Positions 1,847 to 12,367 of a stretch of DNA of 12,367 bases are shown here, one piece after another. The position numbers and the translations under genes are program-made. Each line of letters opens with the position of its first letter. Within the stretch, counting starts at the first letter, position 1. The stretch is from Legionellales bacterium (GTDB lineage: Bacteria; Pseudomonadota; Gammaproteobacteria; PIVX01): the NCBI GenBank assembly GCA_013215905.1, contig JABSQI010000027.1:1-12367 (forward strand), given 5' to 3'. The notes beneath the pieces are model-generated. The model ran no database searches and was not told the DNA's origin. It saw nothing but the letters and a program-made list of their open reading frames with translations.

Positions 1847-3074
1847 ATGTCTCTTTATGAGTTAATAATTATTATCTTGGAACATAAATAGACCATAAAA
1901 CAGATACTTACACATGACGAAGCTTGATGAACATTCTATGAGAAACATCAACACAGAATCATACTTCCTATCATTATCGCTGTTGTAAAATTTCTTAGCT
2001 GCAAAATATTATCAGAGGAGTACAGGATTTTTCTTGTACTAATCAATCTTGCTATTATGTTAAACGGATGTGTTTTACCTTCAAATCCAAAGCTTGTTCT
2101 TCATGTGGTAAGAAAGCAACGAGTATTTGGTTAAATAAGTAAATCAATACCCTTCTACGAACTCCTTTTCAACATATTACTTTTACCATGACTGATATCT
2201 ATGGGATTTCTTTTGGTACAACCGATATCTTCTTAATCTTATTGCTTTACTTGCTGTTGACTGTATCAAAAGAATTGCCAAAAAGAAAAATGTTATTCCT
2301 GGGAGCTTTATTTCTATCTATACCTTTGGACGTGACCTTTAACGTAATATTCACATTCATTTATTCGTTACTTTGGGTGGTTTATCTGATGATAATACTA
2401 GATGGATTAAATTATTCTTCAATAGAGAATATCTTATGAAGCAATGGCGATATAATATCATCAACCTTTTTAGAAATGAATTTAATCGAGGTCATCTTAT
2501 TGTTCCTAGTAAAATATCTCAATCTCTTTATCATGCTTTTACTTTTAACAACTTCCTTGACCAACAATACCAGAAATACTGGCATGTCCATTGTGCTAAA
2601 CCTTCTAACTCTTATAAGAAAGACCTTAAATATCTTAGTAGATGTATTAAAAGACCGCCTATTGATGAGTCTAGACTTAAACACTATGATGGCAACTATG
2701 TTGCTTTTAAATATCTTGACCATAAAACTAAACTTTTTAGACATTTTAAACTTACAACAGAAGACTTCATTGCCAAATTCATTTCTCATATTCACGATGT
2801 TAACTTTAGAACTATTAGATATTATGGCTTCTTATCTAATAGATTAATATCTGATTTATTACCTAAAGTTAAAGATATTATTGGCCAACATGACGATAAA
2901 CAATTAGCTCTACCTGGTTTCCAGAAACTCATGATTGATGAATTTAATGTTGCCCCTCTCAAGTGTCTCTTCTGCGGATGTCAGTTAGTTCTCAACAGTA
3001 TTAGATTTGGTATCACCAATGCTAAGAAACTTTTATCTTTTCATCGGGAGTTAGCTTTACTTAAAAATATCTAA
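1847..3074 (+). pseudogene. Decayed IS91-family transposase (HUH/Y2 rolling-circle type)
   Basis: Translation pieces from different frames line up into one IS91-like transposase. A possible start ATG is at 1847. The N-terminal part around 1931-2002 reads TFYEKHQHRI through to KFLSCK, in a frame broken by TAG 1889 and TGA 1925 and 1928. A shift near 2003 leads to the zinc-finger region (SCTN, CYYVKR, KSKACSSCGKK, with one expected Cys replaced by Phe) up to TAA 2140 and on to about 2202. A one-base loss near 2202 leads to the third frame, with TFGRDL, TAA at 2340-2342, then the HUH segment NIHIHLFVTLGGL. The rest, to 3074, is open: YWHVHCAKPS, CIKRPPI, YLDHKTK and RYYGFLSNR are strongly IS91-like. 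With at least four in-frame stops and two frameshifts it cannot make a full transposase. A 233-codon open piece from ATG 2373 begins after the HUH residues. Confidence 0.88.
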
Positions 3075-3110: not shown

Positions 3111-3220
3111 TTTTGCCGATTTTTGATTAAATATTTTGCTGTTTTTAAAATGATTTTCAATCTATAGTTCATTGTTCATTACTATAATTTGAGTGATGAT
3201 CATATGAATATACCTGATAG

Positions 3221-3499
3221 GTGGTTTTGAAATTCCTTAATACTAAATATTTGTGGATCATAGATTTGATCGAAGATTACGGCGCGCAACTAGGAAAACC
3301 ATATGCTGATGTAATAGGAGATGGTTTGTTTGAAATTAGAGTTAAAGGAAAAGAATGAATAGCAAGAGCATTTTTTTGTTATGCTAAGAATGCAGAAATA
3401 ATAGTGTTACATTCTTTCATTAAAAAAACTCAAAAACCTCCTAAAAATGAATTAGAAATAGCAAAGAAGCGCTTAAAAGAGGTAGAACAAAATGAGTAA
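3221..3499 (+). pseudogene. Decayed RelE/HigB-type toxin (Gp49-like, type II toxin-antitoxin)
   Basis: The frame from 3221, just after TAG 3218-3220, reads IDLIEDYGAQLGKPYADVIG, then GDGLFEIRVKGKE, a TGA stop at 3356-3358, then IARAFFCYAKNAEIIVLHSF and IKKTQKPPKNELEIAKKRL up to TAA 3497-3499. This is the conserved body of the phage-derived HigB/Gp49 branch of the RelE/ParE family, which cleave mRNA at the ribosome. The family usually has about 100-115 residues with an N-terminal strand and helix. Here the first 20-30 residues are missing or shifted and the internal stop splits the core, so no active toxin is expected. The stop is one substitution from GGA, which would give the EGIAR commonly seen at this spot. 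An antitoxin stub overlaps its end. Confidence 0.82.
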
Positions 3500-3569
3500 G
3501 AAGATATTAAGTCATGACAAAAGGAGTTTATTTACCCTGCGCAGCGGCTCCAAGTTCCCAAATAGGTAA
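3492..3569 (+). pseudogene. Stub of the cognate antitoxin gene, truncated into the end of mshG
   Basis: An ATG at 3492 overlaps the toxin stop, the usual toxin-first HigBA arrangement. The frame reads MSKKILSHDKRSLF and then continues through sequence complementary to the mshG 3' end to TAA 3567-3569, 25 codons in all. The helix-turn-helix domain expected of a HigA-type antitoxin is absent. The start resembles the beginning of such antitoxins only loosely, so the identity rests mainly on position and overlap. Confidence 0.45.
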
Positions 3570-4760
3570 GAACACTCCTAAAGCTAGAAATAACACCATC
3601 ACACCTATAAATACAAGCAGGACAGGCTCTATGATATCTCCAATTCTATCTATTTCATAATCTACTTCACGCTCGTAGTACAAGGCAATCTCTTCCATCA
3701 TACGATCTAGCTCTCCAGAGTCTTCGCCTACAACTATCATCTGCAGAGCAATACGTGGAAACAAACCAACATCTTTGGAACTTGCCCCAAGAGACTCACC
3801 AGATTCCATTTTCTCTTTTATTTTATTAATTGATTTTTTAAAATGAGTATTACCAATAGAATTAGCAATCATATCAATCCCTTCATTAAGTGGTACACCA
3901 GTCTTTAATATCATCACCATGGTACGTGCAAATCTAGCTAATAATATTTTCTCTAAGACAGGTCCAACAGCTGGAATTTTCAACTGGAGACGATCAAATA
4001 TCTGCCTGCCATAATTTTTAGATATAAAATATCTAAAACTAAATATAGTAACAATCAATACTCCTAGTAAGGTTCCCCAATTAGCCAACATAAAATCCGA
4101 AAAAGCTATTAAAATTTTCGTAAAGATTGGTAAATCTGCACTAAAAGATTTAAATAATTTAGCAAAAGCAGGAACAACAAATATATTAACAATTACTATT
4201 GCAATAGATATTGCAACCACAACTATTATTGGATATCGCATAACTTTCTTCAATCTTGCTACTGTTTCTAGCTCTAAACTAATATACTCTCCAACTCTTT
4301 CAAAAGCTTCTTCAAGTCTACCTGTTTGTTCGCCAACACCAATTATATGTCTTAATATTGGTGGGAATATATTAGGAAATTGTTTAAATACTACAGAGAT
4401 ACTTTGACCACCAGCAACATCATCACACATCTTGAAAAGGGTACGTCTTAGGGTTGAATTTTTAGTAGATTCTGCAAGCCTCTTCAGAGCATTAGTAACT
4501 GGGATCCCTGATTTTAGCATTGTATACATTTGTCGACAAAACAAATGTAAATCTTTAGGGTAAACTTTTGGATCTGTTAATTCGAGATTTAATTTATTTC
4601 TCCATCCTGAAGAACTAGATACAATATCAATAGTAACTGGAATTAAGTTTTGATCTCTGAGTCTTTTAGCAACTAAAATTCTCTCAGTAATATCCGTGAA
4701 CTCACCATTAACTAGTTCTCCCTTTTGATTTCTAGCAATATAAATTGCTTTTTTTGCCAT
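3528..4760 (-). CDS. mshG: MSHA pilus inner-membrane platform protein MshG (GspF/PilC family)
   Basis: A polytopic inner-membrane protein that forms the core of the pilus assembly platform and is thought to pass the motion of the ATPase MshE to the growing pilus. Length (410 residues) is normal for the family. Two copies of the T2SF/GspF domain are visible, at about 68-190 (LHLFCRQMYTMLKSGIPV) and 270-392 (LARFARTMVMILKTGVPL). Each has the family's GExTG/GExSG loop: VGEQTGRLEEAF near 142 and VGEDSGELDRMM near 344. Membrane segments are at about 173-198, 215-245 and 375-400. The start lies 4 bases after the mshE stop, with AGG about 12 bases upstream of the ATG. It is the last msh gene present. 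Its stop codon lies at the junction with the degenerate toxin-antitoxin region, but the C-terminus looks complete. Confidence 0.93.
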   Translation of the reverse strand: MAKKAIYIARNQKGELVNGEFTDITERILVAKRLRDQNLIPVTIDIVSSSSGWRNKLNLELTDPKVYPKDLHLFCRQMYTMLKSGIPVTNALKRLAESTKNSTLRRTLFKMCDDVAGGQSISVVFKQFPNIFPPILRHIIGVGEQTGRLEEAFERVGEYISLELETVARLKKVMRYPIIVVVAISIAIVIVNIFVVPAFAKLFKSFSADLPIFTKILIAFSDFMLANWGTLLGVLIVTIFSFRYFISKNYGRQIFDRLQLKIPAVGPVLEKILLARFARTMVMILKTGVPLNEGIDMIANSIGNTHFKKSINKIKEKMESGESLGASSKDVGLFPRIALQMIVVGEDSGELDRMMEEIALYYEREVDYEIDRIGDIIEPVLLVFIGVMVLFLALGVFLPIWELGAAAQGK

Positions 4761-4764
4761 GATT

Positions 4765-6465
4765 TTATTTTACCTGATCTGTTAGTTGTCCTAATACTCT
4801 TTTTGCTTCCTCTATAGTAGTAATACCTTGCAAAGCTAAATTTAATGCAGCAGAACCAAGTGAAATATAGTCTTTTTTATTTTTAACTGCTTCATAGTAT
4901 TCATTAGAGTTATTACTATTTAATGCTTTATTCATGTTTTCATCTAAAATTAATAACTCAAAAACTCCTATCCTGCCTAGATATCCAGTACCATTGCAAT
5001 GCGAACAACCATTACCTTTTTTAAAATTGTTTGTATATCCTTTATCAGCAAAAATTTTATCTAACCAAACTTTCTCTCGATCTGAAATGTTATATTCTGC
5101 TGTACATTTGTTACAAACTTTTTTCACTAATCTTTGAGCCAAAACAGCTGTTAATGAAGTAGCAACTAAAAAACTATCGACCCCCATACTTACTAATCTT
5201 AAAGGACTAGAGGCGGCATCATTTGTATGAAGAGTTGCTAATACTAAATGTCCTGTCATTGAAGCTCTAAGAGCTATATTTGTGCTTTCTTCATCACGAA
5301 TTTCTCCAACCATTATAATATCTGGATCATGACGCAATGCAGAATGAAGCACTCTAGTAAACGTTAGCCCAACTTTTTCATGAATTTGGACTTGATTTAT
5401 TCTAGGCAAATGATATTCAATAGGATCTTCAACTGTAATAATTTTTTTCTCTTTTACGTTAATATTTTTTAATACACTGTAGAGCGTTGTAGTTTTCCCA
5501 CTTCCTGTGGGCCCTGTAACTAACACCATGCCATATGGTTGCTGAACAATTTTTTCTAAATTTTCTTGTATTCCACCTACTATACCTAATTCTTCATAAC
5601 TTAAAATACCTTTTGATTGATTTAAGATCCGCATCACGACAGTTTCACCATAATGAGTCGGTAATGTAGATAATCTTACATCGATACTTTGATCTTTTAC
5701 TTTAATATTGAATCTTCCATCTTGTGGTACTCTTTTTTCAGCAATATTAAGCCCGGCCATCAGTTTCAATCTTAAGGTCAATGAATTAGCAATTTTTTTC
5801 TCATTCATCAAAGTTTCCTGAAGATCACCATCAATTCTTAATCTTATTCTAAGAATAGACTCATCAGGTTCAATATGAATATCAGATGCATTCATATGTA
5901 CCGCATCAGAAAATAATGATTTAAGTAATTTTACTACTGGCGCATCCTCTGCTCCAACATCAACACTATAATCATCTATTTCAACTCCTCGAGATTTTAT
6001 TTCATCAGACAATTCCTCAGCAAACCCCGTTATTTCTTCTCTGTGCCTATATACTAAATCTATAGAATCAGAAAGATCATCAGCAACAGCCAATACTAAT
6101 TTTATCGGTTTATCAAGCTTTGTTGTAATCTCATCATAAGAAAAGATATCTGTTGGATCAGACATAGCTACCAAATAGTAATTTGGTTCTTCTTTTAAAA
6201 CCATAGCTTGGTATTTTCTGGCAAAATTTTCTGGAAGCTTTAAAGTATCTTCCTCATTAAATTCAAAAGATCTAACATCAACAAAATCAATATTAAGTTG
6301 TTTTGATAATGTTCTAGCTAATTGATATTTATCAATATCTCCTTGAGAAAGTAAAATTTCTCCTATTTTTGACCCTTGTTGTTTTTGCACTTCAAGAGCT
6401 TGAGATAGTTGTTCTTGTGTAATTAATTCATCTTCTAATAACAGCTCACCAATCTTTTTTCTCAT
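4765..6465 (-). CDS. mshE: MSHA pilus assembly ATPase MshE (GspE/PilB family) with MshEN domain
   Basis: A hexameric cytoplasmic ATPase that powers pilus extension by acting on MshG. The N-terminus is an MshEN c-di-GMP-binding domain with two tandem 24-residue motifs, residues 4-27 (KIGELL...ALEVQ) and 33-56 (KIGEILL...LSKQ), separated by the canonical five residues. Both begin with Lys where the consensus has Arg, and the first has Glu13 where Gly is expected. The ATPase core has Walker A GPTGSGKT at 318-325, the VEDPIE Asp-box region at 345-350, the Walker B region IIMVGEIRDEE at 383-393 and the His box HLVLATLHTND at 406-416. Four cysteines, two CxxC pairs at 451/454 and 487/490, form the zinc site of this branch. 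Length 566 is normal. The start fits because the first motif begins at residue 4. It follows mshN by 17 bases. Confidence 0.95.
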   Translation of the reverse strand: MRKKIGELLLEDELITQEQLSQALEVQKQQGSKIGEILLSQGDIDKYQLARTLSKQLNIDFVDVRSFEFNEEDTLKLPENFARKYQAMVLKEEPNYYLVAMSDPTDIFSYDEITTKLDKPIKLVLAVADDLSDSIDLVYRHREEITGFAEELSDEIKSRGVEIDDYSVDVGAEDAPVVKLLKSLFSDAVHMNASDIHIEPDESILRIRLRIDGDLQETLMNEKKIANSLTLRLKLMAGLNIAEKRVPQDGRFNIKVKDQSIDVRLSTLPTHYGETVVMRILNQSKGILSYEELGIVGGIQENLEKIVQQPYGMVLVTGPTGSGKTTTLYSVLKNINVKEKKIITVEDPIEYHLPRINQVQIHEKVGLTFTRVLHSALRHDPDIIMVGEIRDEESTNIALRASMTGHLVLATLHTNDAASSPLRLVSMGVDSFLVATSLTAVLAQRLVKKVCNKCTAEYNISDREKVWLDKIFADKGYTNNFKKGNGCSHCNGTGYLGRIGVFELLILDENMNKALNSNNSNEYYEAVKNKKDYISLGSAALNLALQGITTIEEAKRVLGQLTDQVK

Positions 6466-6482
6466 GATATTTTATTCTCGTG

Positions 6483-7664
6483 CTAATCCAGCTCATAAAT
6501 TCTAGATTCTACGTAATTTTGTAATTCAATATCTAAACCACCAACATCCAAGGCTTTATTAAATGCAGTTAAAGCTTGCCTTTCACTGCCAATTGAATCA
6601 TATGAGACTCCAAGTCCAGCCCACCATTCTCCTTCATGAGGATAAAGTTTTAATAAACTTGCATATAGTTTAATGGCTTTTTTATGATCCCCTAGCTTTT
6701 GTCTAACGGCGGCTATAAAAGCATAATAATCTCCATCTACAGTTATGTCTGGAAGTTGTGATAATAGTGTTTCTAACGCAGCTTGTGGCTGGTTATTTCC
6801 TAATAATAATTTTGCTTTAATTTTTTTATATATCAACATATTAGGTGCAAGATAAATGCCTTTTTCTAGAGCAATCTCAGCATCTTGTCTCCTGCCTAAT
6901 TCTAACGCTGACAAGATAAACATTTTTCTAGCTAGATGGTTATCTTGACGAAAACTGATAGCCCTTTTAGCGTTTAAATATGCTTTAGTGATATTACCTT
7001 CATTAGCAAAATCCAGTGCTTTTTGATAATACTCTTTAGACAACTCACTAGGAGTTTTTTGATTTTTAAGTTTTTTCACTTCTAAAGATTTTTTCTTGCT
7101 TTCATCATCAGTTTCATCTTTACTAAATAATTTTATAGCGAGCTTTGTAGAATTTTCATCTGTAAACGCAATTTCTGTAACGCTTGTTTTAGGTAATAAA
7201 TCAAAAGTCAATAATAGATCGTCTTCATCAACAGTTTTTACAATTAAATTAGACGCAGCTTGTGAAGAAATATCGCTTTTGAAATTCTGCCCTCTTATTG
7301 TATTATAGAGAGTCACTTTATATGTCCTTCCGTCTGTACTTCTAGTAGCCCCAAATTTTGTTTGGGCAGATAACTCTAGCATTATAATTGTAAATTTATC
7401 TTGTTCTAATACAAGCATGTTATTCAGACTACGACTAGGTTCTGCTGATTTTTGACCAACAAACCGTATTGAAGAATTTATAGGTAATTTCTTAACAACA
7501 TCATCCATGGCTTTTTGTTTAGAATATTTTTCTTTCCCTCCTGAAGATAACAAAAAATATGCAATAACACATAGTAGTATTGAAAATATGAAAAGCCATT
7601 TTTTCTTATTTATATTTGTGGTATTTTTTACAATTGTTTTTTTTTCTTTATCTAATTTACTCAT
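6483..7664 (-). CDS. mshN: MSHA biogenesis protein MshN-like, TPR repeat membrane protein
   Basis: A membrane-anchored protein, expected in the periplasm, probably supporting secretin or platform assembly; its precise role is not well known even in Vibrio. Residues 1-22 are basic, 23-41 are one membrane helix, and the rest should be periplasmic. Residues about 75-190 form a strand-rich domain (LVLEQDKFTIIMLELSA, YKVTLYNT, DLLLTFDLLP) that resembles AMIN-type domains; this comparison is inference. Residues about 208-380 are tetratricopeptide repeats, for example YYQKALDFANEGNITKAYLN and WWAGLGVSYDSIGSERQALT. The gene is named from its position between mshL and mshE and from the TM-plus-TPR layout; the sequence itself is less conserved than MshE or MshG. 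It starts 14 bases after the mshL stop, with only a weak GGA ribosome site. Confidence 0.78.
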   Translation of the reverse strand: MSKLDKEKKTIVKNTTNINKKKWLFIFSILLCVIAYFLLSSGGKEKYSKQKAMDDVVKKLPINSSIRFVGQKSAEPSRSLNNMLVLEQDKFTIIMLELSAQTKFGATRSTDGRTYKVTLYNTIRGQNFKSDISSQAASNLIVKTVDEDDLLLTFDLLPKTSVTEIAFTDENSTKLAIKLFSKDETDDESKKKSLEVKKLKNQKTPSELSKEYYQKALDFANEGNITKAYLNAKRAISFRQDNHLARKMFILSALELGRRQDAEIALEKGIYLAPNMLIYKKIKAKLLLGNNQPQAALETLLSQLPDITVDGDYYAFIAAVRQKLGDHKKAIKLYASLLKLYPHEGEWWAGLGVSYDSIGSERQALTAFNKALDVGGLDIELQNYVESRIYELD

Positions 7665-7678
7665 TTTTAAATTTTATT

Positions 7679-9400
7679 TTATCCAGGATTTAGCTCTTCA
7701 GAAGGTCTAAATATATGACTCTTACTGCCAAAATGAAATCCTCTATTTACTTTATCGAAAGAATCTCTTGTTTTCTTCGATTCATTTTCCCATGTTTCAT
7801 CATTGACAATTATAGGTCTAAGCATAATTACTAGTTCACTTTTAATTGAAACTTGCTTTGTTCTTCTAAACATAGTACCAACAACTGGAACATCACCAAG
7901 GAAAGGAGTCTTTGCAATTCCTTCTTGAGAGTGTGATTTCATTAATCCTCCAATAATAACTACTTGGCCGTTCTTTGCCTTGACAATGTTATCTGACTCT
8001 CTGATAGAGCTTAAAGCAGATGGTAAAGTTGATTGTTGTCCTTGAATATTAACAATTTTGGCTTTATCAGTAACTTCGCTTATCGTAGGATGGATATGTA
8101 AGATAACATCCCCATCTCTATCTATATGAGGGGTAACATCTAATGAAATACCAGAAAAGAATGGCGTTAACTCAATTGATTGGCTTTGTGTCGTTGACGC
8201 AGAAGTTGTGCCTTGAGAAGTATTCCCAGATACATCCGTTACAAAAAATTCATCACTTCCAACCTTAATAATTGCTTTTTGATTATTAACTGTAGATATT
8301 CTAGGACTAGATAAAACCTGAACATTCCCTTGAGTTGCAAGTAACTTCATTGTTAAATTAAAACGACCAAGTTTAGGTGTTAAAGTAAAAACACCATTAA
8401 AATCTCCTAAGCTATCTATACCTGAATAACCTCCTGTTGCTAGTCCATTGCTTTGTGCGCTTCCTAATTTACTAGATATAAATCCCCAATCAATTCCAGA
8501 TTGATAACTATCATTTAATACCACTTCAAGAATTTTAGCTTCAAGAATAACTTGTCTGTTCAAGCTCTTCTCTGCTCTATCTAAATACATTTCAACTTCT
8601 CTAAGCTCACGCGGTAAAGCCCTCACAACAACTATACCTGTTTGTGGGCTTACAACTACAGATCTACCTCCAGTTGTTCCAACCATCGCTTTTACTGTAT
8701 TTGCAACTTCTGGCCAGAAATCTGTAATTAATTCTGTACCAACACTTGCGCTTAAAGTAGCATTTCTATTTGAACTACCTCCTGAGCTTGATGAACTACC
8801 ACTACTACTACTACTACTACCACTATTCGAACCACTATTACCACCAGAAGTTAATTGTCCAGCAGAAACATTTGTTGTAGATTTTCCTGTACGTTTAATA
8901 TTTAAGTAATCTACATGAAATACTTTCGTAAGTAACCCAGCAGGCATTATCTTAAAACCATAATTAGTCGCTTCAAACTCATATCCATAAGCATCCCTTG
9001 CGGCACTAAGTGCTTCTCTAATGGTAACTGCTTTTAAGTTCAGGGATATTTCTCCTGAAACCCCAGGATTTACAACCATACTATATTTAGTTCCAGCAAC
9101 AAGTCCCATGAAAAACTCTTTAGCAGGGACATCCTGAACAGCTATATCAAATCTATCTTCTTTCTTTTTATTTTTAATAGGATTAAGAGAGATATCTAAT
9201 CCTGGGACTAAAGACTCAGTAATCATTAAGGGAGGGGCTTTACTTCTAGAAGAAGAAATTTTTCTATTATATTGTTCACTATCATCTAAAAAACTTACCA
9301 TTTCATCCATAGTATTTGGTCGTTCATAAGTAGAACTACATCCAACTAAACATAAAATCCCAACCACTATAAATAGTTTATTTAATCCCTTAGTTATCAT
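7679..9400 (-). CDS. mshL: MSHA outer-membrane secretin MshL (GspD/PilQ family lipoprotein)
   Basis: Forms the multimeric outer-membrane channel through which the pilus passes. The N-terminus is a lipoprotein signal peptide with lipobox LVGC (Cys21). An STN-like short secretin N-domain lies at about 84-150 (FDIAVQDVPAKEFFMGLVAG). An extended Ser/Gly/Asn-rich linker is at 186-212, followed by a secretin N-subdomain at about 213-280 (SVVVSPQTGIVVVRALPREL). The secretin domain at about 287-535 includes QVLSSPRISTVNNQKAIIKVG, a Ser/Thr-rich gate segment near 393-408, and the signature VVIIGGLMKSHSQEGIAKTP with ELVIMLRPII. Length 573 is normal. The start has a clear AAAGGAAA ribosome site and overlaps the mshK end by 11 bases. 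Unlike the Vibrio order, no mshM follows. Confidence 0.95.
   Translation of the reverse strand: MITKGLNKLFIVVGILCLVGCSSTYERPNTMDEMVSFLDDSEQYNRKISSSRSKAPPLMITESLVPGLDISLNPIKNKKKEDRFDIAVQDVPAKEFFMGLVAGTKYSMVVNPGVSGEISLNLKAVTIREALSAARDAYGYEFEATNYGFKIMPAGLLTKVFHVDYLNIKRTGKSTTNVSAGQLTSGGNSGSNSGSSSSSSGSSSSSGGSSNRNATLSASVGTELITDFWPEVANTVKAMVGTTGGRSVVVSPQTGIVVVRALPRELREVEMYLDRAEKSLNRQVILEAKILEVVLNDSYQSGIDWGFISSKLGSAQSNGLATGGYSGIDSLGDFNGVFTLTPKLGRFNLTMKLLATQGNVQVLSSPRISTVNNQKAIIKVGSDEFFVTDVSGNTSQGTTSASTTQSQSIELTPFFSGISLDVTPHIDRDGDVILHIHPTISEVTDKAKIVNIQGQQSTLPSALSSIRESDNIVKAKNGQVVIIGGLMKSHSQEGIAKTPFLGDVPVVGTMFRRTKQVSIKSELVIMLRPIIVNDETWENESKKTRDSFDKVNRGFHFGSKSHIFRPSEELNPG
8801..8820 (-). repeat. Trinucleotide microsatellite inside mshL (ACT on the plus strand, AGT as read in the gene)
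   Basis: Twenty uninterrupted bases of ACT repeat, with further ACT/ACC units on both sides, encode part of the poly-Ser linker of the secretin. Changes by whole units would lengthen or shorten the linker without shifting the frame. Confidence 0.85.
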
Positions 9401-9794
9401 AATTTTCCTTTAGATGAGTTTTTATAGGATTTTTAACATCCTCAAATATTTCATCATTTACTAAATCTCCACTATCAGATTTATGTTTCCTCCTTAGCAG
9501 CTTCAAGATTATCTTCTCGCCCTTAGGACCCTGTAACTCTACATACTCATCAGTGATATCAACCACTTTTGCATCAGCATAAACACCACCAATTTTTACT
9601 ATCTCTCCATTAATATTAGCAGTATGTTTACCATTTTTATTATCAAGTCTGATCATTTTTAACCGCAGTGGTTCTGTTTCAACTGTAACTTTTGGTGCTA
9701 ATTTTTTGGGAGGCTTAGTCGGATCAGCCATTTCAGCGTGCAAATTAAGCACAAACAAAGATATAATTATCCAAATAATTGATTTATTAACCAT
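9390..9794 (-). CDS. mshK: MSHA biogenesis protein MshK
   Basis: A small periplasmic protein of 134 residues. It has a signal peptide (hydrophobic residues 6-18, likely cleavage after LHA at about residue 20) immediately followed by the MADPTKPPKK stretch, the DPT[KR]PP motif characteristic of MshK and related pilus/secretion proteins. The middle part is strand-rich (KHTANINGEIVKIGGVYADA, VELQGPKGEKIILKLLRR), similar in design to GspC/PilP-type periplasmic domains that contact the secretin. The charged C-terminus (residues about 105-134) looks unstructured. It overlaps mshJ by 8 bases and mshL by 11, so the three are probably translated together. GAAGG lies just upstream of the ATG. It lies between mshJ and mshL as in other MSHA loci. 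Confidence 0.87.
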   Translation of the reverse strand: MVNKSIIWIIISLFVLNLHAEMADPTKPPKKLAPKVTVETEPLRLKMIRLDNKNGKHTANINGEIVKIGGVYADAKVVDITDEYVELQGPKGEKIILKLLRRKHKSDSGDLVNDEIFEDVKNPIKTHLKENYDN

Positions 9795-10698
9795 CTGAAG
9801 CCTTCGATAATACTAATAAATGAACTCTTATAGAAACTTTTGCAGTCGGATAATTGTCAACTAAATATTCAAGACTGTTCCAATAAATTCGCCAAGAATT
9901 TTCCAAACTGGTAAGAAATTTATATACATTTATATAATCACCGTCAATATCGAGCTCAATAGGGTGAATATAAATCTCTGGTAACTTATCTAATCCAATT
10001 TTTGTAGCACCTAAGGTTAAGGGCGTTGCTCTATATCTGCTTAATGAAGCTATTCTAAATAGTTTTAATATTTCATTTTGGGCTACTTTTGATTTTATTA
10101 TTTGTACCATCCTCGGTGTTTCCAATTGATTTTTCGTAAACTCCTCAATTTTGGCCACTTCTATTTGGATTTTTTTCTCAATTTCATTAATACTATCTTG
10201 CAAGCTTTTATTTGGATTATCAGAAATATCAGCTAAAAAAGCTTTTTCTTCACGAGCTAATGAAACTAATGATCTCTTGACACCTTTTGTTTTTATTTCA
10301 TTTAGTTTGAAGCTATTATATTCAGGTAATATATAAAACATCAAACCAATTAATAAAAGCGCTGCAGAACTAGCTACTAAAAACATAACCCTTCTTGAGT
10401 TATTCCAATTATCAAAATGAGAATATCCTGATGTTACCAACTCATCAATCTTATTATCAATATTCTGCATGAATGGTTTTAAATAAGTATTCCATTTTGG
10501 TAACAATTCTTTTTCGGCGTATGGGAGAAATTTGTTTTTATAAAATGGGTGAATATTATTTCTATAAATCGGTAAGAAAATTCTTCTTAAATATGGATGG
10601 AGTAACTCCATATATCTTCTATAAATATATGACCCTCCTCTTTTTACAAAAGAGAAAATCTTTTTAGCAGCATTGCTTGATAGATTATTGTTCAACAT
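9787..10698 (-). CDS. mshJ: MSHA biogenesis protein MshJ (PilO/GspM-like) with repeat-bearing N-terminal extension
   Basis: A bitopic inner-membrane platform protein. One membrane helix is at about 105-124 (FLVASSAALLLIGLMFYIL). After it come a coiled-coil-like stretch (about 130-190, KSLQDSINEIEKKIQIEVAK) and a C-terminal ferredoxin-like region (about 195-300, IHPIELDIDGDYINVYKFL), as in PilO/GspM/MshJ proteins. What is unusual is the first 100 residues on the cytoplasmic side. MshJ proteins usually have only a short tail there, but this one has six consecutive eight-residue units with proline at 35, 43, 51, 59, 67 and 75. NNSRRVMFL at 99-107 matches where the ordinary family sequence begins. 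It overlaps the PilN-like gene by 14 bases and mshK by 8. The ribosome site is weak. The start at 10698 is the only ATG giving the whole repeat; a later start would lose it. Confidence 0.82.
   Translation of the reverse strand: MLNNNLSSNAAKKIFSFVKRGGSYIYRRYMELLHPYLRRIFLPIYRNNIHPFYKNKFLPYAEKELLPKWNTYLKPFMQNIDNKIDELVTSGYSHFDNWNNSRRVMFLVASSAALLLIGLMFYILPEYNSFKLNEIKTKGVKRSLVSLAREEKAFLADISDNPNKSLQDSINEIEKKIQIEVAKIEEFTKNQLETPRMVQIIKSKVAQNEILKLFRIASLSRYRATPLTLGATKIGLDKLPEIYIHPIELDIDGDYINVYKFLTSLENSWRIYWNSLEYLVDNYPTAKVSIRVHLLVLSKASDG
10456..10599 (-). repeat. Eight-residue (24-base) periodic repeat in the cytoplasmic tail of MshJ
   Basis: Six units read HPYLRRIF, LPIYRNNI, HPFYKNKF, LPYAEKEL, LPKWNTYL and KPFMQNID (residues 34-81). 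Proline is always at position 2, a hydrophobic or His residue is usual at position 1, and the last position is usually hydrophobic. The first two or three units are similar enough in DNA to suggest tandem duplication; the later ones have drifted. Confidence 0.85.
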
Positions 10699-11344
10699 TT
10701 TTATCTTGTAAATTATCTATATTAGTTTCTTTATCATTTTCAGCAACTCGGGAAAAAATTTCTAAGGAAAATTCATCATTACCAGAACTTAGTGTGGATG
10801 TTTCTATTTTTTTTAATTTAATCGTTTTATTGCTAAAAACCTCATCAACTTCTAATTTTTTAATTAGACTTTGAACTTTAGACACATTATTAGTAAGCCC
10901 TTTTAAAACAATATATGTACCACCTTTTTGGATTTTAATCTCTGTTAACCATAAATCATCTTTTGCATGTCTGGATAAGGCTAAAAAATATTTAGAAAAT
11001 CCTTCTTCATTTGAAAATCTAGGGCTAGATATTTGTTGCTTTAAATCAACGTGCAATTCTCGAATATCTTTTAGCTCATTCAACTTACTCTGCAGAACTA
11101 CACTTTTGGCAATTTTAGGATATTTTTTCCTAAGTTGAATTATTGCATAACGTTTTGTTTTCTTTAATTCAATTGTATTATTCAAATCTATTTTAGAATA
11201 ATAACTGCGAATTGCTACATAACACCATGATACAAGTAGAAATACCAATATTGAAAACAATATTTTTAAATATGTTTCCCACGACATTCTGTTCTTAAAA
11301 TCATGTGGTAGGCAATTATATAAATTAATCTGCTTGTTCTTCAT
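10685..11344 (-). CDS. PilN-like MSHA platform protein (second gene of the mshI pair)
   Basis: A 219-residue bitopic inner-membrane protein. The N-terminus, MKNKQINLYNCLPHDF, carries the INLYN segment by which PilN-type proteins bind their actin-like partner (PilM, here MshI). A single membrane helix lies at about 25-45. A coiled-coil stretch follows (about 50-105), then a ferredoxin-like domain at about 110-185 (ISSPRFSNEEGFSKYFLAL, WLTEIKIQKGGTYIVLKGLT) typical of PilN. A charged tail of about 35 residues follows. It sits between mshI and mshJ, where many MSHA loci carry mshI2, and overlaps mshI by 20 bases, which suggests coupled translation. The overlap start has an AGGAGGGG sequence upstream, but rather far (about 17 bases) from the ATG. 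Confidence 0.83.
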   Translation of the reverse strand: MKNKQINLYNCLPHDFKNRMSWETYLKILFSILVFLLVSWCYVAIRSYYSKIDLNNTIELKKTKRYAIIQLRKKYPKIAKSVVLQSKLNELKDIRELHVDLKQQISSPRFSNEEGFSKYFLALSRHAKDDLWLTEIKIQKGGTYIVLKGLTNNVSKVQSLIKKLEVDEVFSNKTIKLKKIETSTLSSGNDEFSLEIFSRVAENDKETNIDNLQDKNVEQ

Positions 11345-12367
11345 TTTGATATCTTAATGCCCCTCCTAAAGCAACCATATTTGTATCGTCAGTCTCTACC
11401 CAATTTTCTAAAGAATCACTGATGTTAAACTCTTCTACATTCTTATTTATTAATTCAGAAAATTTTTGTTCAACCTTATTTATTTCCACAACTTGGCTAT
11501 ACAGCACTTGTTCTGGCTCATCAATATTTAAACTGTTAGTGCAATATTCAAATGATCTCTTAATCTCATCTGCTAATAGATCAATTACTTCTGGCGAAGC
11601 ACTATCACTTTTTGTTTCTGACTCTCGTTCAAGATCAAGATCATTTAAATCTTTTACTGCACTTTTAGTAATATTTAACTGGTGGATAGGTTCCTCATTT
11701 TCATTTGCAATAGTTAATTTTGAATTTGATGTTTCTGATATGTTTTTTTTTCGAGTTACCTTATATTCACTTTTAGCAGTTTCACTACTAGAGTCATCCC
11801 CCCAAGTCAAAGAAAGTTTTCTGGTTAAGAATAATCTATTATTTTTGCAAATTAATAGAGTTAATTTTCCAAAAACTTTAACTATTAACGCTACATTTTT
11901 ATTATCAAATTTTGTCCCCCTAAATAAATTCGTTAAAGCATTCTCAGTGATATCAATAGTACAAAGATTCAAGCGTGATGATTCAAGTATAGAAGCTCTC
12001 TCAATCATTTGTTTCTTATTAACAATAACTGAGAAAGTTTTGCTAGATTTATCGCTCTTTGAATTAGCGGGAATATCCATGAAATCCAACAAAACTTCTT
12101 CTTCTTCAGAATCAGTTTTCTCTAGTACTTCCCATTTCAATGCTTGTAATTGCTCTTCTTCAGGGATAGGTGGAATATCAAAAACTAACAATTTATATTC
12201 TTCAGGATTTAATATCCAATTGCATTTAGCTTGAGATAGGTCATGCCTTAAAACATAACTGGATATTTTTTTCTTCAGATCACTATTGTCATAAAATTTA
12301 TCAGAGTATTCGTGTAATATCTTAAAAGTATCATCTTTAGAAAGTTCAATTACTATTAGATAGAACT
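11325..12367 (-). CDS. mshI: MSHA biogenesis protein MshI (PilM/GspL-like), 5' end outside the window
   Basis: The reading frame is open without a stop from the right edge (first full codon at 12365) to 11325, about 346 codons. The upstream part reads SQAKCNWILNPEEYKLLVFDIPPIPEEEQLQALKWEV, matching the conserved MshI block CNWVL-x-P-x-x-Y. The TTG at 12191 is therefore internal and not the start. MshI is an actin-like cytoplasmic protein that should bind the PilN-like product downstream. Conserved actin-like features continue to about codon 188 of the visible part (VALIVKVFGKLTLLICKNNRLFLTRKL). A Ser/Glu/Lys/Asn-rich stretch of about 70 residues (11592-11804) then interrupts the fold, before RSFEYCTNSLNIDEPEQVLYS and the final NMVALGGALRY typical of PilM/MshI ends. 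It ends overlapping the PilN-like gene by 20 bases. Confidence 0.85.
   Translation of the reverse strand, partial: FYLIVIELSKDDTFKILHEYSDKFYDNSDLKKKISSYVLRHDLSQAKCNWILNPEEYKLLVFDIPPIPEEEQLQALKWEVLEKTDSEEEEVLLDFMDIPANSKSDKSSKTFSVIVNKKQMIERASILESSRLNLCTIDITENALTNLFRGTKFDNKNVALIVKVFGKLTLLICKNNRLFLTRKLSLTWGDDSSSETAKSEYKVTRKKNISETSNSKLTIANENEEPIHQLNITKSAVKDLNDLDLERESETKSDSASPEVIDLLADEIKRSFEYCTNSLNIDEPEQVLYSQVVEINKVEQKFSELINKNVEEFNISDSLENWVETDDTNMVALGGALRYQNEEQAD

Follow-up and report, generated by a model that had tools for sequence, protein, structure and literature searches.

Proline-led octads in the extended N-terminus of an MshJ-like pilus platform protein, possibly an amphipathic helix lying on the inner membrane

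The stretch of DNA analysed here (the window, 12,367 nt from the Legionellales bacterium contig JABSQI010000027.1, GCA_013215905.1) encodes a platform protein of the known MshJ/PilO/GspM kind that, judged from its sequence, carries a new N-terminal element. Six octads, each marked by a proline, precede the transmembrane helix, and the reading that we favour, tentatively and at somewhat less than an even chance, is that this tail forms a continuous amphipathic helix, kinked at its prolines, that rests flat against the inner membrane on its cytoplasmic leaflet. Searches found an octad tail in just one other protein, a 303-aa sequence, 64% identical, from the protein database entry for the MAG Gammaproteobacteria isolate Glo_16 (contig PIVX01000005.1; its msh locus is called L001 and its genome G001 below), which was the sole genome of its order in the sample compared.

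The msh genes of the window lie on one strand in the order MshI-like, PilN-like, mshJ, mshK-like, mshL, TPR gene, mshE and mshG, and were assigned as follows:

11325 to 12365, minus strand: MshI/PilM-like gene, truncated by the window edge (position; pilM TIGR01175 at E 3.2e-4, a score far below the curated cut-off; alignment with the MshI-like ORFs of relatives)
10685 to 11344, minus strand: PilN-like gene (mshI2), overlapping mshJ by 14 nt (PF05137, E 6.3e-7, above cut-off)
9787 to 10698, minus strand: mshJ-like gene for a PilO/GspM-type platform protein of 303 aa with an extended N-terminus (ORF; hhalign; gene order)
9390 to 9794, minus strand: MshK/PilP-like small protein (position only)
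7679 to 9400, minus strand: mshL secretin (PF00263, E 4.3e-38)
6483 to 7664, minus strand: mshN-like TPR protein (TPR families)
4765 to 6465, minus strand: mshE ATPase with MshEN domain (PF00437 and PF05157)
3528 to 4760, minus strand: mshG platform protein (PF00482)

The mshJ-like gene lies directly after the PilN-like gene and before mshK and mshL, where mshK is placed by position only; a family match was looked for with the MshK/PilP-like product and none was found. Using a profile of the window protein and its Glo_16 relative, residues 92–300 aligned with 20 ordinary MshJ sequences at 99.7% hhalign probability (E 8.5e-27). No match to Pfam T2SSM or PilO was obtained for the window protein at E up to 0.1; among the 20 ordinary MshJ proteins, T2SSM was matched by 15 and PilO by 2 at E up to 0.01. 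The naming of the gene as mshJ by the sequence-only reading is thus upheld by gene order and by the homology of residues 92–300 to ordinary MshJ. A passage of PMC4624765 gives P. aeruginosa PilO as the characterised homologue of mshJ, and in V. cholerae MSHA machines were marked by a functional MshJ-mCherry fusion, as described in part of PMC9815625. A full-length AlphaFold2 model of the window protein, in which the periplasmic ferredoxin-like fold was looked at, was poor (pLDDT 39, from a two-row alignment).

The space between mshL and the TPR gene leaves no room for a gene encoding MshM (ExeA-like ATPase), either in the window (7664–7679) or in L001 (8793–8808), and the same is seen at a further locus, L002, where the second gene is TPR-like by eye only. 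V. cholerae carries mshM between mshL and the TPR gene, according to Table 1 of PMC4624765.

Like MshJ/PilO/GspM proteins in general, the window protein follows a PilN-like gene, has one transmembrane helix and aligns with ordinary MshJ over residues 92–300; unlike them, it has a cytoplasmic N-terminus of about 102 residues, where ordinary MshJ has at most 29. The single N-terminal transmembrane helix is placed by sequence and prediction only, and the counterpart of the ordinary tail is the short segment just before it, at about residues 78–102. The features of this region are:

10468 to 10698, minus strand: N-terminal cytoplasmic extension, residues 1–77 (absent from 91 of 91 other readable relatives; present in Glo_16)
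10456 to 10599, minus strand: six octads, residues 34–81 (proline at 35, 43, 51, 59, 67 and 75)
10521 to 10568, minus strand: two adjoining 24-nt units, 79% alike (Tandem Repeats Finder score 61)
10324 to 10392, minus strand: transmembrane helix, about residues 103–125 (alignment A4; AlphaFold2 helix 100–127)

The octads read, in order, HPYLRRIF, LPIYRNNI, HPFYKNKF, LPYAEKEL, LPKWNTYL and KPFMQNID, with the unit consensus P-[YF]-hydrophobic-polar-polar-x-hydrophobic-x. For six prolines scattered randomly over a 103-residue tail, the chance of all being spaced by 8 would be 4.4e-8, and of being equally spaced by any one value from 2 to 20, 6.4e-7; no run of six equally spaced prolines arose in 200,000 random placements. 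The interval and the fixed proline spacing reported from the sequence alone are exact. The term "exact octapeptide repeat" holds for the proline spacing and not for the units, which are otherwise only loosely alike: their lag-8 BLOSUM self-score was reached by 257 of 5000 shuffles with proline held fixed (847 of 5000 for L001). Similarly, the described pattern of an aromatic or bulky residue after proline and a hydrophobic end applies to five of the six octads in each case, with lysine after the proline of unit 5 (the others being aromatic or aliphatic) and aspartate at the end of unit 6. Self-similarity over three octads (24 residues) was strong in L001, where 3 of 5000 proline-fixed shuffles reached it, and less marked in the window (75 of 5000). 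At the nucleotide level, lag-24 identity was reached by 30 of 5000 proline-fixed codon shuffles in the window versus 1462 of 5000 in L001; the likeness of the 24-nt units may be a weak trace of tandem duplication, one that is not clear in L001. The extension is also basic and rich in aromatics, with 14 K/R against 3 D/E and 15 aromatics in residues 1–77 of the window protein. Net charge over residues 1–81 is +10 in the window and +9 in L001; the median for 44 ordinary tails, which are much shorter, is +2.

To place the extension among relatives, MshJ matches were collected from 59 of 185 genomes related to G001 and from 89 of 369 genomes of the class, G001 being included in both of these overlapping samples, for which kinship among genomes was not given. 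Apart from G001, no match started ahead of query residue 80 in the 369-genome sample or of residue 78 in the 185-genome sample. N-termini were read at 95 loci from 94 genomes (46 + 49; G269 twice, and G002 from a separate search), taking as the start whichever start codon lay closest to the end of an upstream ORF, a rule that gave a 4-nt overlap in 65 of 95 cases (33/46 and 32/49). Three loci were set aside, L030 and L082 being cut by contig ends and the start of L101 not being placeable. With the Glo_16 locus (L004 in this set) excluded, all 91 other relatives have 1–29 residues before the transmembrane helix (median 20), the starts of L075 (tail of 1) and L098 (tail of 4) being doubtful. The motif RER lies within the last five tail residues in 68 of these 91 ordinary tails; proline occurs in 19, at most twice, and two prolines eight apart occur in none.

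Because all 91 other readable relatives have tails of at most 29 residues, the roughly 77 residues that stand before the ordinary tail are, on this comparison, an addition that, as far as sampled, belongs to this lineage alone. The unusual tail length that had been claimed is borne out by the same 91 sequences. An octad tail as a known family trait is ruled out, and the doubt that the extension might be such a trait of constant length falls with it, as other MshJ proteins lack the extension. A mobile domain found elsewhere was also considered and rejected, since searches returned only the known pair or mshJ itself: residues 20–100 gave only the two known proteins against the protein database up to E 10, with 10 candidates scored and the search confined to proteins of 0.55–1.75 times the length, and residues 1–103, up to the same limit, gave only mshJ within genome G001. 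A profile search with A4 returned four proteins among the best 7995 candidates scored, namely the known pair and two whose lengths, 236 and 234 aa, are ordinary. Scans of a genome-contig collection returned no relative for MshJ and three loci for MshE, and all matches of MshE to plasmids were under 60% identity.

Comparison of the two known tails was then used to examine coding status. The window and Glo_16 proteins align without gaps, the octad count is six in both and all six prolines coincide. Residues 1–34 have diverged fast (18% amino acid identity, pN 0.56, dS saturated), residues 35–77 much less so (53% identity, dN 0.32, dS 1.57, dN/dS about 0.2), and residues 126–302 are 76% identical (dN 0.15, dS 1.43). 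Three of the six proline codons, at residues 43, 59 and 67, have changed synonymously. Because the six prolines were kept despite a dS of 1.57 and these three synonymous changes, the octad segment is, on codon evidence, both translated and under selection, and this is clearest for residue 35 onwards. No frame break separates the window gene from its relative; the concern that a close relative might show stops within the repeat is thus answered by the open frame of Glo_16, the one relative that bears the tail. A non-coding reading of the octad tail is ruled out by the codon analysis of residues 35–77.

The pattern of side chains within the octads is that of an amphipathic segment. Counting proline as position 0, residues hydrophobic in both sequences occupy position 1 in 5/6 octads, position 2 in 6/6 and position 6 in 5/6, and positions 3 and 4 in 0/6. 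The hydrophobic moment of residues 35–82 was computed on the Eisenberg and Wimley-White scales and compared with 3000 shuffles in which the prolines were held fixed. Within the range of 60–124 degrees, the moment peaked at 90 degrees in both sequences on both scales, and this value was attained in 13 and 11 of the 3000 shuffles of the window sequence (Eisenberg and Wimley-White, respectively) and in 13 and 2 of those of L001. At 100 degrees, the angle of an ordinary helix, the corresponding counts were 48 and 613 for the window, and for L001 106 and 266, so that the moment there is also raised on the Eisenberg scale. When the best angle was left free over 60–124 degrees, the number of shuffles, out of 3000, that attained the peak rose to 176 and 83 for the window and to 240 and 32 for L001. 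Evidence for a hydrophobicity period of 4.0 residues in the octad tail is moderate because this free choice of angle makes the peak less striking; the two tails are homologous and do not count as independent evidence. The Wimley-White sum for residues 1–81, taken without a helix bonus, was slightly unfavourable in both (+4.4 and +1.1 kcal/mol).

AlphaFold2 modelling of residues 1–130 gave a helix from residue 4 to 95, running through all of the prolines, and a second helix at 100–127 (mean pLDDT 70, pTM 0.29), with block pLDDT values of 71–77 over residues 31–80. As the input alignment held two rows only, a continuous helix through six prolines is a prediction of modest confidence. Searched against the PDB with Foldseek, this model gave no match at E up to 10, a lone helix being a poor query. 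A sequence search of the PDB with the full profile likewise gave none at E up to 10, and one with the tail gave six matches, all weak (E 0.45 at best) and none of them named as an apolipoprotein.

Taken together, the proline spacing, the predicted helix and the amphipathicity make the membrane-skimming structure proposed by the sequence-only reading a plausible one. Over each octad an ideal alpha helix would turn through 800 degrees and so drift by 80 degrees, and if uncorrected the hydrophobic strip would turn 400 degrees from the first to the sixth unit. Local unwinding at each proline, suggested because the period lies near 4.0 residues with a proline in every octad, may remove this drift and keep the strip in line. 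All six octads could then present a single hydrophobic, aromatic face rimmed by bases to the lipid, and the basic and aromatic residues of the tail would suit an anionic interface. With one tail per MshJ subunit, such helices would widen the footprint of the platform on the inner leaflet and might serve to anchor the ring below the pilus, to space it or to make it stiffer; they could also determine the lipid surroundings of MshI and MshE at work. Acidic phospholipid stimulates the motor ATPase of the T2SS if the enzyme is copurified with the L protein, as reported in a portion of PMC3594185. The interface at the inner leaflet thus matters in a related machine, and by analogy, contact between the inner face of the platform and lipid is functionally plausible.

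Exchangeable apolipoproteins are built of proline-punctuated amphipathic helices with repeats of 11 or 22 residues. The tail would resemble these in its manner of working, as an apparent amphipathic helix with proline at regular intervals, but differs in its period of 8 and its moment peak at 90 degrees, and no Pfam apolipoprotein match was obtained at E up to 0.1. We know of no class of eight-residue proline-registered helix repeats in T4P or T2SS platform proteins. That the octads represent such a class, reaching 4.0 residues per turn by periodic unwinding at proline and forming an in-plane cytoplasmic skirt of the T4P platform, is a more doubtful proposal than the membrane-lying helix itself.

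The main rival to a membrane helix, which we consider rather unlikely, is a docking strip, in which the octads would form a ladder of equivalent sites for a partner in the cytoplasm, most probably MshI (PilM-like) or the MshE hexamer, and would have co-evolved with a longer loop in MshI:

11589 to 11807, minus strand: 73-aa loop inside the MshI-like protein (70 aa in L001; 8–46 aa in 31 other MshI-like sequences)

These lengths come from an alignment of 36 MshI sequences, from which L033, L041 and L056, which look like wrong ORFs, were omitted. The long loop of this lineage and the regular spacing, which suits repeated sites, both favour docking, and a platform protein's N-terminal cytoplasmic tail has a precedent as a docking element in T4aP, where a section of PMC5805733 describes an N-terminal PilN motif seated in a pocket of PilM. 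That contact is made by a single short motif on PilN, whereas here a long array of octads sits on the PilO-like protein, and in the same section the cytoplasmic N-termini of both PilN and PilO are described as short by prediction (PMC5805733). Little of the MshI loop is conserved, and its charge is of opposite sign in the two genomes, with 10 K/R versus 16 D/E in the window and 15 versus 11 in L001; an acidic MshI loop as the electrostatic partner of the basic tail was therefore ruled out. As only one lineage is involved, the co-occurrence of long loop and long tail amounts to a single event. On the motor side, MshE (566 aa) and MshG (410 aa) are equally long in both genomes, and the window copies pass the cut-off for T2SSE, MshEN and T2SSF only. 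If the tail does touch MshI or MshE, the contact would also link the motor to the platform in a new way.

Less probable again is that the tail folds by itself into a compact or superhelical domain. Here the proline-kinked helix, drifting by 80 degrees per octad, would wrap around another copy or a neighbour in the ring to form a right-handed bundle under the membrane. In coiled-coil geometry a period above 3.6 leads to right-handed supercoiling, which the period of 4.0 would fit, as would the three-octad self-similarity of L001 and, more weakly, of the window. Proline every eight residues, however, disfavours long coiled coils, and the Foldseek search, for what a lone helix is worth as a query, lends this domain no support. 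We think it improbable, though somewhat less so, that the tail is an unstructured spacer, an extended proline-marked linker with neither fixed structure nor partner, than that the repeat is never made at all. The fast divergence of residues 1–34 is what such a linker would show, but the octad part, with its 53% identity, retained hydrophobic positions and freedom from indels, is unexpected for one. A start-site artefact, by which translation would begin at Met77 (present in both genomes) and yield an ordinary-length protein of 227 aa, close to the median of 225 for the 91 relatives, is scarcely credible given the dN/dS of about 0.2 upstream of it, the synonymous changes at three proline codons, the gap of about 215 nt that it would leave in a tightly packed operon and the 14-nt overlap of the upstream start with the PilN-like gene in both genomes.

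PilO/GspM-type proteins are generally regarded as periplasmic spacers with short inner-side parts. In one lineage, a subunit of this type has gained a sizeable conserved cytoplasmic element that is basic, aromatic and proline-periodic. Returning to the membrane-lying helix, its simple sequence rule, proline every 8 residues and hydrophobic positions every 4, would provide a testable design for a flat, unwound amphipathic helix. A literature search by title, in which subscription journals were thinly covered, gave nothing on such an MshJ/PilO/GspM tail among the matches listed.

Outside the msh genes, the window contains an ORF for a transposase of the Y2_Tnp family at 2373–3071 on the plus strand (PF04986, E 3.1e-31), which we take to be of IS91 type. 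A 350-aa ORF at 643–1692, also on the plus strand, matched no Pfam family up to E 0.01 and has, by eye, a hydrophobic stretch near the middle with charged sequence on both sides. In Glo_16, the msh cluster is flanked on the opposite strand by pilin-like genes, recognised by eye from their N-terminal motif, at 3199–3690 and 14345–15921 of L001 (both minus strand).
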